DNA of 64,000 bases from Thomasclavelia saccharogumia DSM 17460 (GTDB taxonomy: Bacteria > Bacillota_I > Bacilli_A > Erysipelotrichales > Coprobacillaceae): positions 1 to 64,000 of the forward strand of contig NZ_JMLH01000004.1 of assembly GCF_000686665.1 (NCBI RefSeq), written 5' to 3'. Below, in pieces: positions 24,298 to 32,441 of this stretch (position 1 is its first letter; each line of letters begins with the position of its first letter). The position numbers were made by a program, and so were the translations under genes. The notes beneath the pieces are model-generated. The model ran no database searches and was not told the origin of the DNA. It worked only from the letters and a program-made list of their open reading frames with translations.

Positions 24298-24322
24298 CAT
24301 ATAATGTTTTAAGGTGATAATA

Positions 24323-25987
24323 ATGGAGTATAGGTTAATAAAAGAAAATGAAATAGAAGCAGTAATTAAATTGGTTTGGCAAGCTGCTCAAGAATTTATC
24401 TTTACTAATTTAGAAAGTAAGGGATCAAAAGAATTTGATCAGCTAAATACAAAAGAATTTTATTTAGATAAGTCTAATCTTACATATATTTGTTTAAACG
24501 ATAATAAAATTATTGGTATGGTTAGTTTAAGTAACGGAAAGCATTTAAGTTTATTGTTCGTAGATAAACGATATCAAAAAAAGGGAATTGGTAAAAGATT
24601 AGTAGAAATAGTTGATAATTTAGTTTTAGGTGATCTTAAAGTTAATGCTAGTATTTATGCTAAATCATTTTATGAACAGATTGGATTTAAATTAGCAGGC
24701 AGTTTGGAAAAAAAAGATGGTATATTATATTATCCAATGATTAAAATTAGAAATGTTGAAAAACGTTTTTGCAATTATGATGAAGTTGTAGATTTTATTA
24801 GTAGTCAGAAAAATCGAGTTTACAGTCTGGATAATTTTAAACAGTACATGGAAGATTTAGGTAACCCGCAATTGATTTTAGATTGTGTTCACATTGGGGG
24901 AACTAATGGCAAAGGCTCAACAACTAATTATATTAAAGAAGTATTAAAACAGGCAGGTTATAAAATTGCCACTTTTACATCTCCAGCTTTATATTCAAGA
25001 TTAGATATTATAAGAATCAATGATCAATTTATTGATGAACAGACGATGGTCAACTATTCTAATCGTTATGTTGATTTATGGTTAAAGTATGAGATTTCTA
25101 TGTTTGAAATTGAAGTATTTATTGCGATTATGTATTTTATTGAACAAAAAGTAGATTTTGCGTTATTTGAAGTTGGATTAGGTGGTTTATTAGATGCAAC
25201 GAATATTATTATGCCTAAATTAGCGATTAATACTAATATTGGTTTAGATCATGTCGATTATTTAGGTTACGATTACCAAAGTATTGCTTTGAATAAAGCA
25301 GGAATCATTAAAGATGGGATAGATTATTTAACTGGTGAAACAAAAGCTGAATGTTTAGCTGTATTTAATGATGTATGTCGCAAACATCATAGTAAACTGT
25401 TGACATTACAGCCAATTACAAATATTTTAGATAGTAACAATGTTAGTTATCGTTATCGTGGTTATGATATTATTTTAGATACACCAGCTTTATATCAAGT
25501 ATATAATAGCGCTTTGGCGTTTGAATCATTATGGTATTTAAAAGAATATGGAATTGTTACTTTTAGTGATGATGATTTGTTACAGGGAATGTATAATGCG
25601 CACTGGGCTGGACGATTTGAAATCATCAATATTGAACCACTTATTATTATTGATGGTGCTCATAATAAGGAAGGAATTGATGCTTTTTATGAATGTGCTA
25701 AAAAATATGACAATATCAAAATAATTTTTAGTGCGCTTCGTGATAAAGATTATAAGCATATGATTGAAAAACTTTTACAGTTGACTGATGATATTACAAT
25801 TTGTGAGTTTGAACACGTTAGAGCTAGTAATGCTAAAACTCTTGCTAGTGGTTTTGATGTTAAGATTGAACCTAATTATAAGGTGGCGATTGATGAGGCA
25901 TTTGCTCATACGGGAACAGTGTTTGTTACAGGATCGCTATATTTTATTTCTAAAGTCAGGGAATATATTATGAATAAGTCAAGATAG
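24323..25987 (+). CDS. folC: GNAT acetyltransferase fused to folylpolyglutamate synthase
   Basis: One 554-residue frame joins two enzymes. Residues 1-145 are a GNAT N-acetyltransferase: the acetyl-CoA pyrophosphate loop is YQKKGIGKRLVEI at about 84-96, and SFYEQIGFKLAGSL is the C-terminal strand. Residues 150-554 are a complete Mur-ligase-fold FolC: P-loop GGTNGKGST at 192-200, FEVGLGGLLDATNI, NIGLDHVDYLG and the C-terminal DGAHNKEGIDAF. FolC adds glutamates to tetrahydrofolate in the cytosol and is normally a free protein of about 420 residues. No stop or restart lies at the joint. ATG 24323 is preferred; the GTG nine bases before it is part of the ribosome site AAGGTG. The role of the acetyltransferase is unknown. 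Confidence 0.88.
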   Translation: MEYRLIKENEIEAVIKLVWQAAQEFIFTNLESKGSKEFDQLNTKEFYLDKSNLTYICLNDNKIIGMVSLSNGKHLSLLFVDKRYQKKGIGKRLVEIVDNLVLGDLKVNASIYAKSFYEQIGFKLAGSLEKKDGILYYPMIKIRNVEKRFCNYDEVVDFISSQKNRVYSLDNFKQYMEDLGNPQLILDCVHIGGTNGKGSTTNYIKEVLKQAGYKIATFTSPALYSRLDIIRINDQFIDEQTMVNYSNRYVDLWLKYEISMFEIEVFIAIMYFIEQKVDFALFEVGLGGLLDATNIIMPKLAINTNIGLDHVDYLGYDYQSIALNKAGIIKDGIDYLTGETKAECLAVFNDVCRKHHSKLLTLQPITNILDSNNVSYRYRGYDIILDTPALYQVYNSALAFESLWYLKEYGIVTFSDDDLLQGMYNAHWAGRFEIINIEPLIIIDGAHNKEGIDAFYECAKKYDNIKIIFSALRDKDYKHMIEKLLQLTDDITICEFEHVRASNAKTLASGFDVKIEPNYKVAIDEAFAHTGTVFVTGSLYFISKVREYIMNKSR

Positions 25988-30784: not shown

Positions 30785-30803
30785 ATTTAAGATTTTATTA
30801 GTA

Positions 30804-30838
30804 AAATCGTGAGGCTTAATAACCTCACGATTTTTTAA
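30804..30838 (+). terminator. Terminator of the hexosaminidase gene
   Basis: AAATCGTGAGG (30804-30814) pairs with CCTCACGATTT (30823-30833), followed by T. The group II intron begins a few bases later. Confidence 0.85.
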
Positions 30839-30840
30839 GT

Positions 30841-31414
30841 GTGCCACGCATGGCATAAGACTAGATGGTGAAAGTCCATTGTGGGGGTTTCGTACTACCA
30901 ACCACTAGCCAAAGATAAGGTATCCATCGTAAGATGCGAACGGGAGGAAGTTGGAGGCAAAGTCCTGACCCAAGGAATACGAACTATTTTAGGCATATGC
31001 TTACTGGATAAGGCTACTTAACAAACTAAAGTCCAATAGTACGATGGAGTAAGTGGTGTAAAGATAGTGGGTGCGTGGAATGAAAGTATTATGTCTTACT
31101 GTGGGAGGTCCTAGGAACATGATGAAAACGTAGTCATGGTGGAAACTGATAAGAACAAGATACAGAAACCTACAGAAATTAGATATCAACAAAAACAAGG
31201 TATGGGAATGGGCAAATACAAGAAAAAGCTACTGGAGAATATCCAATAGCTTCATACTCGCTAGAACACTAACCAATGATAGATTAAAATCATGGGGATA
31301 TATAAGTGCTTTAGACTATTACAATTCTATAAACTTATGAAACACCGTATAGGGAACCCTACGTATGGTGTCGTGAAAGGGGCGAAAGATTTTAATTCTT
31401 AGCCTCTATTCTAT
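30841..31414 (+). mobile_element. ORF-deleted group II intron
   Basis: The 5' end GTGCCACGCATGG with CTAGATGGTGAAAGTCCA about 20 nt later is the domain I start typical of bacterial group II introns. Near the 3' end, 31339-31415 holds a domain V/VI-like stem: ACACCGTATAGGGAACCC pairing with CTACGTATGGTGTCG, then GGGGC...GCCTC. Between them only the C-terminal end of the maturase survives. Total about 570 bp against 1.8-2.5 kb for intact introns. It lies directly behind a transcription terminator and the surviving protein end lacks an endonuclease domain, both consistent with bacterial class C; class is not certain. Exact boundaries need alignment. Confidence 0.75.
31134..31340 (+). pseudogene. 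ltrA: C-terminal fragment of group II intron reverse transcriptase/maturase
   Basis: The frame from 31134 to TGA 31338 reads IRTRYRNLQKL, then VWEWANTRKSYWRISNSF and ILARTLTNDRLKSWGY, the domain X/C-terminal region of intron-encoded maturases (RKxYWRxAxSPIL...TLTN). The catalytic reverse transcriptase domain with YADD is absent from the window. It has no start or ribosome site and is not expected to be expressed as a protein. Confidence 0.75.
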
Positions 31415-31544
31415 TATTATTATTTGTTTTATATTTTGCTTTAATGACTAAATAACTTGATGTAGGCAATGATTTGTAGTATTATTTCAATTGTATACAT
31501 TTTTGTATATAATTTAGAAAAAGGGGGAGTCTACTTTTTAGTAG
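31415..31544. other. Junction between intron and tnpB remnant
   Basis: AT-rich, no gene. A perfect -10 (TATAAT at 31508-31513) without a convincing -35 could drive folT across the tnpB remnant. Confidence 0.35.
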
Positions 31545-31619
31545 CAATCGCATGTACGGTCATTGATCGGAATTAACGCCTGTGGACTAGAAATGAGGAT
31601 GAAGCAGGAAAGATTGTAA
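31545..31619 (+). pseudogene. tnpB: Last codons of an IS605-type tnpB (orfB)
   Basis: The frame 31545-31619 encodes SHVRSLIGINACGLEMRMKQ followed by ERL and a stop. The pattern GI-x-ACG...MKQE-x is the characteristic C-terminal end of IS200/IS605 and IS607 TnpB proteins. Everything upstream, including the RuvC and zinc-finger parts, is missing. The same DNA would form the 3' part of an omega-RNA in a living element. It ends 18 bp before the folT start. Confidence 0.55.
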
Positions 31620-31637
31620 ATAAGTAGCAATCAGATT

Positions 31638-32441
31638 ATGATTCAGATTATTTGCGGATTTATTTTAGTTTTGATCGGTATATTAGTATTTTGGAAATAT
31701 CCGATTAAAAGTGACACTAAGTCACTTACGCTGGCGGCCTTATTTATTGTATTGGCAGCTGTATTAAAAAGATTATCAATTATGATACCGTTATTTGGTT
31801 TTGAGAGTTTAAAAATCTCTATTGAAGTTATTCCAATGCTGTTAGCGGGAATAATGTTAGCACCTGGTTATTGTTATATTATTGGAATTGCGGTAGATTT
31901 AGTTGGTTTAATTGTAACACCAACAGGTTTTCCATTCTTAGGATTTACACTAAGTGCTGTACTGCAAACGTTGATACCATCAATGGTGGTAGTAACTGTA
32001 AAAGAAAATCATACGCATCATTTAGAGAAAATTATTCAAGTGATTTTAGTATTTTTAGCACTTGGGGCATGCAGTTATGTTTTTAGCTTGGATCAGGTAA
32101 CTATTTCTAAGAATGTTATAAATATTACACTTAACTATAAAATTATTATTAGTGTTATTTGTATTGTGATGATAAGTGTTTTATTTATAGTAATGTATTA
32201 TTATAAAAGAAAGTTAAATGAATCAGACTATCATTTGTTTAATTTATGGCTTATTTCTGTGGTACTTGTTGAGATGGTAATTACATTTTGTTTAACGCCA
32301 TACTGGCTGCAAGTGATGTATGGGATCCCGTTTACACTATCTTTGTTTATTCGCGTGATCAAAGAGTGTATTATGATTCCGGTTGATATTATTTTAGGAT
32401 ATAGTGTTTTAAGAGTATTGAAACGTTTTAGAGTCTTTTAA
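31638..32441 (+). CDS. folT: ECF transporter S component, folate family (FolT-like)
   Basis: Membrane substrate-binding subunit of an energy-coupling-factor vitamin transporter, 267 residues. Family marks are LTLAALFIVLAAVLK near residue 30, PLFGFESLKISIEVIPML, GIMLAPGYCYIIGIAVDLVG, the Pro-rich VTPTGFPFLGFTLSAVLQTL, and a C-terminal MIPVDIILGYSVLRVL. It would dock to a shared EcfAAT module encoded elsewhere. Folate fits best; the call rests on overall resemblance. The ATG has no recognisable ribosome site, and a tnpB remnant sits directly before it, so the native leader may have been replaced. A terminator overlaps the stop. Confidence 0.75.
   Translation: MIQIICGFILVLIGILVFWKYPIKSDTKSLTLAALFIVLAAVLKRLSIMIPLFGFESLKISIEVIPMLLAGIMLAPGYCYIIGIAVDLVGLIVTPTGFPFLGFTLSAVLQTLIPSMVVVTVKENHTHHLEKIIQVILVFLALGACSYVFSLDQVTISKNVINITLNYKIIISVICIVMISVLFIVMYYYKRKLNESDYHLFNLWLISVVLVEMVITFCLTPYWLQVMYGIPFTLSLFIRVIKECIMIPVDIILGYSVLRVLKRFRVF

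Follow-up and report, generated by a model that had tools for sequence, protein, structure and literature searches.

An intron remnant behind the hexosaminidase terminator

The window, by which we mean the whole 64,000-nucleotide stretch of Thomasclavelia saccharogumia DSM 17460 DNA analysed here, carries folC (24314-25987) and folT (31638-32441) with a hexosaminidase gene and a 574-base group II intron remnant (30841-31414) lying between them; all coordinates are window positions (Table 1). In relatives, the folT leader follows folC directly, with no hexosaminidase gene at that place. The remnant is located between the hexosaminidase terminator and a conserved promoter-like sequence of folT, and from this position its effect on the neighboring genes is probably small, such that the insertion could be close to neutral.

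Table 1. Coordinates of the remnant, its parts and its insertion site in the window
Feature	Position	Strand	Remarks
Intrinsic terminator stem-loop of the hexosaminidase gene	30803..30834	+	12-bp stem, 8-nt loop; presumed intron target hairpin
IBS1 TTAAGT in the 5' exon	30835..30840	+	6/6 pairing with EBS1
Domain I, structurally intact	30841..31104	+	RF02001 match; family consensus structure
EBS1 loop ACTTAA	31016..31021	+	pairs with IBS1
Domain II, 5' part only	31105..31146	+	3' partner strand deleted; family structure
Deletion junction TGGAAAC within TGGAA(AC)	31140..31146	+	~1,320 nt missing relative to G008
Maturase C-terminal tail	31140..31340	+	66 codons 31140-31337, stop 31338-31340
Domain V	31342..31371	+	folds at -12.3 kcal/mol; triad CAC at 31343-31345
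Domain VI and 3' intron end	31373..31414	+	alignment to relatives; class C end consensus (PMC4028801)

The covariance-model search proposed in the original prediction was carried out with Rfam, and RF02001 (group-II-D1D4-3) matched the window at 30923-31094 with 102.6 bits (E = 7.8e-20), far above what chance would give. Alignment to full-length copies in a genome of the same genus (G008) set the intron ends at exactly 30841 and 31414, and the predicted coordinates thus proved correct to the base. The 5' 306 nt of the remnant are 90% identical to these copies and the 3' 265 nt are 83% identical, the whole being collinear with positions 1 to ~309 and then ~1620 to 1894 of the 1,894-nt G008 intron. 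The RF02001 match and this alignment together bear out the prediction of a group II intron shrunk by internal deletion.

Several features place the element in class C, as had been proposed. Its 5' end, GUGCCACGCAUGG at 30841, fits the class C consensus GUNYGCCNRGCAUGG, and its 3' end, CUCUAUUCUAU, aligns, apart from a few differences, with CUCCUACYCGAU of the relatives, the published class C 3' end being CCUACYCGAU-like (PMC4028801). The site is adjacent to a terminator and has a short IBS1. The maturase of a relative (P0001) contains RVT_1 and GIIM only, and its best structure matches are 7uim (6e-124) and the GsI-IIC RT 6ar1 (1.3e-118). The predicted lack of an endonuclease domain was therefore confirmed in the maturase of the relatives, the window itself keeping only the 66 C-terminal codons. 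The element belongs to class C (IIC), and it shares with B.h.I1, GsI-IIC and the O. iheyensis IIC intron a family habit of insertion after intrinsic terminators, a short IBS1 and an En-less maturase. The relatives of the remnant also have the CGC-type domain V of class C introns such as B.h.I1 and GsI-IIC, whereas the window copy differs from all three in having no RT, no domain III, only parts of domains II and IV, and a mutated triad.

Class C introns habitually insert behind terminators (PMC4424553, PMC4028801), and the predicted placement behind the hexosaminidase terminator was upheld: the terminator stem (fold of region 30796-30845, -16.9 kcal/mol) directly abuts the 6-nt IBS1, and the intron follows. 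As all six EBS1 bases pair with the element's own 5' exon beside the terminator, the intron most plausibly arrived by genuine RNA-guided insertion, that is, by EBS1-IBS1-guided reverse splicing directly behind the terminator. The same correspondence was observed throughout the family. Across 32 elements, 173 of 192 positions were paired between EBS1 and the element's own 5' exon, against 137.9 +/- 3.6 when exons were shuffled between elements (maximum 152 in 10,000 shuffles). This covariation is clean evidence that each element was inserted by a match of its own EBS1 to a terminator-adjacent site.

Deletion and triad change

Relative to the 1,894-nt G008 copies, ~1,320 nt are absent from the remnant. 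The original prediction held that the RT core had been deleted; the RT is indeed gone, but the loss extends further, to the 3' arm of domain II, domain III in its entirety, the 5' portion of domain IV, where the gene begins, and the maturase up to its last 66 codons. These assignments use a consensus structure built from 31 family members, in which intron positions 1-264 make up domain I, ~265-323 domain II and ~331-377 domain III. Independent support for the loss of domains II and III comes from RF01998 (domain II/III), which matches the full-length copies at intron positions 292-377 and gave no match in the Rfam search of the window.

The junction (TGGAAAC) falls within a motif that, in G008, flanks the deleted sequence at either end (GGTGGAAAC and GATGGAAGT), which suggests that the deletion took place between short direct repeats, probably by recombination or slippage between copies of TGGAA(AC). 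Besides the window itself, no match spanning the junction in one piece was found among 43 family genomes; a 27-mer across the junction had no match in viral contigs, and plasmids gave distant partial matches only. Decay of this kind, by internal deletion between short repeats with both intron ends kept, is unlike the loss of the 3' terminus emphasized for group II introns in the literature (PMC4496777).

Domain V had been expected to form a 34-nt hairpin; it does fold, into a hairpin of 30 nt, which is the usual size in this family. RF00029 (Intron_gpII) gave no match in the window's own genome, and domain V was consequently judged by alignment to relatives. In the remnant, a G to A change at 31344 has turned the catalytic triad into CAC. 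The triad is CGC in 49 of 49 relatives with a readable domain V, as read from the listed domain V sequences, and also in G009; the 49 leave out L119, in which domain V is absent, and L085, whose hairpin escaped the automatic search. A triad mutant has served as the splicing-deficient control for RmInt1 (PMC4496777). Measured against a catalytically competent group II intron, with a CGC (or AGC) triad and complete domains II to IV, the element has CAC and lacks domain III and the 3' arm of domain II; the most fitting label for it is a degenerate class C intron.

The account that very probably applies is that a class C intron inserted behind the terminator and was later deleted and triad-mutated, leaving what is now a single-copy relic. 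The deletion and the point mutation in domain V would both have come after insertion, and the relic would now be non-splicing and immobile.

Prospects for activity in trans

The original prediction had allowed for continued splicing or movement of the element, given a maturase from a full-length relative. Such a non-autonomous mini-intron, splicing and/or retrohoming with the maturase of a relative, would account for the retention of both ends, domain I, EBS1 and domain VI, and full-length relatives do exist in sister species. Bacteria are known to have ORF-less introns served by maturases in trans, although such cases are rare (PMC4424553). Introns of this type, such as C.te.I1, resemble the remnant in encoding no maturase; however, they keep an intact ribozyme and nearly all coexist with a related maturase gene (PMC4424553), and the remnant has neither. 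The full-length relatives that were to be sought in the same genome were not found in the 133-contig draft, in which the element is single copy. A domain search of the rest of this draft, from which a repeated full-length intron could be missing, turned up neither GIIM nor any group II maturase, and a search with the G008 maturase protein recovered only the tail and an RT-Cas1 fusion. With the CAC triad, the deletion of domain III and an arm of domain II, no other recognizable maturase in the assembly, and a junction covered in one piece only by the window, splicing or movement in trans appears very unlikely on sequence grounds, and the mini-intron explanation is accordingly very improbable.

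Two further matches in the same genome were set aside, one at G000:C27:18635 consisting of short domain I fragments only and the other, at G000:C28:1339, being an RF02001 match of 18 bits, below threshold. The RT-Cas1 fusion is encoded at L151 1034-2977 (G000:C26), and RTs of ~650 aa similar to it are present in G004 and G006.

It is slightly less probable again that the remnant is an assembly error, in which an intron of full length was collapsed to its ends or a base was miscalled in the triad. The sequence does come from a single source and a draft of 133 contigs; yet the junction coincides with a natural TGGAA repeat and is internal to a contig of 92 kb, not at its edge, the downstream flank is continuous with conserved DNA upstream of folT, and differently deleted copies occur in other species. 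There is even less reason to expect that the element represents a minimal class C intron, one that does without domain III, tolerates a CAC triad and can still splice or retrohome given a class C maturase from another strain or element.

The maturase tail, predicted at about 70 codons, is present and measures 66. It corresponds, at 82% identity, to residues 407-472 of the maturase of G008, with a dN/dS of ~0.10 against G008, a value that on its own could be read as retained constraint. In the least credible of the alternatives, the open frame and this low ratio would reflect an expressed tail under selection as a small maturase or RNA-binding protein. Against this, an in-frame TAG lies upstream at 31131 and the tail has no ATG, GTG or TTG start, so that translation is not expected; nonsynonymous change is raised in the window lineage, and the tails of other deleted copies (L178 and the G006 relic) contain stops or indels.

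The relic reading accommodates the same ratio. Domain I retains 61 of 67 consensus pairs, equal to a full-length G008 copy, and its substitutions include paired changes (e.g., G-C to A-T). These pairs and the dN/dS of the tail together indicate that most of the divergence accrued while the lineage was functional. In an unrooted three-way comparison, unique changes in the 5' 306 nt numbered 21 in the window, 9 in G008 and 14 in G009, and nonsynonymous and synonymous changes in the tail were 5N/6S, 1N/12S and 3N/8S, respectively. The extra window-specific and nonsynonymous changes are suggestive of what follows inactivation, and such a pattern suggests that the death of the element was fairly recent.

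Full-length relatives, other relics and the folT leader

A close relative of this intron occurs at least 24 times in the sister species G008; in 15 cases the reading frame for the 472-residue maturase is full-length. All 24 copies with exactly matched starts begin right behind a terminator-like sequence, at the same intron base. The full-length introns of G008, in the same genus, and of G009, in the same family, share the ends and the terminator targets of the remnant, but they are 1,894 nt long and multi-copy, with an intact ORF and different EBS1 loops and targets; in G008, EBS1 is GCTAAA and the sites are TTTAGT-like. The near-identical G008 copies (L031-L056) have the appearance of a recent burst. 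Several of their maturase genes are split by insertions in turn, and this genome should be a useful system for the study of class C target choice.

Related genomes contain relics of their own. The one at G006:C60 keeps intron positions 1-77 and 1676-1894 and has CGT, not CGC, at the triad position. G041 has a 568-nt relic (L178), which retains the CGC triad but not the EBS1 region (intron positions 118-215), and a 385-nt relic (L179). The breakpoints differ from relic to relic, which gives them the look of separate deletions, and since no other relic shares the form seen in the window, repeated decay is favored over the spread of a mini-intron. In bacteria, the majority of group II intron copies are reported to be truncated or inactivated (PMC4424553), and the remnant is therefore an expected case: it is the ordinary decay of a known mobile element.

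Between the promoter-like sequence and folT (TIGR04518) lies a conserved leader of ~110 nt (31515-31637), which may be more interesting than the intron remnant. The leader is present in 33 of 43 family genomes and was found upstream of folT in 30 of 30 loci checked; in one genus, a 55-60-nt unit is repeated three times in tandem in all six genomes. Covariation is seen in one helix (CCTG/CAGG, CCCG/CGGG, CCCA/TGGG and CCTA/TAGG), and a second shows G-U to G-C changes. In Rfam, the leader gave only a sub-threshold match to RAGATH-18 (25.8 bits against a cut-off of 44.9), from which the IS607 TnpB guide RNAs derive (PMC11061315). A model of the unit also matches in a different family of the same order, where the site precedes a folT-like gene (L227), and at a locus resembling RAGATH-18 and IS607 TnpB guide RNA that is not upstream of folT (L226, G300:C110). 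The latter match hints at a possible common origin of the leader and such guide RNAs. That the leader is simply TnpB debris is argued against by its conservation in the 33 genomes, and it is a candidate folate-related riboswitch, or else a candidate exapted TnpB guide RNA.
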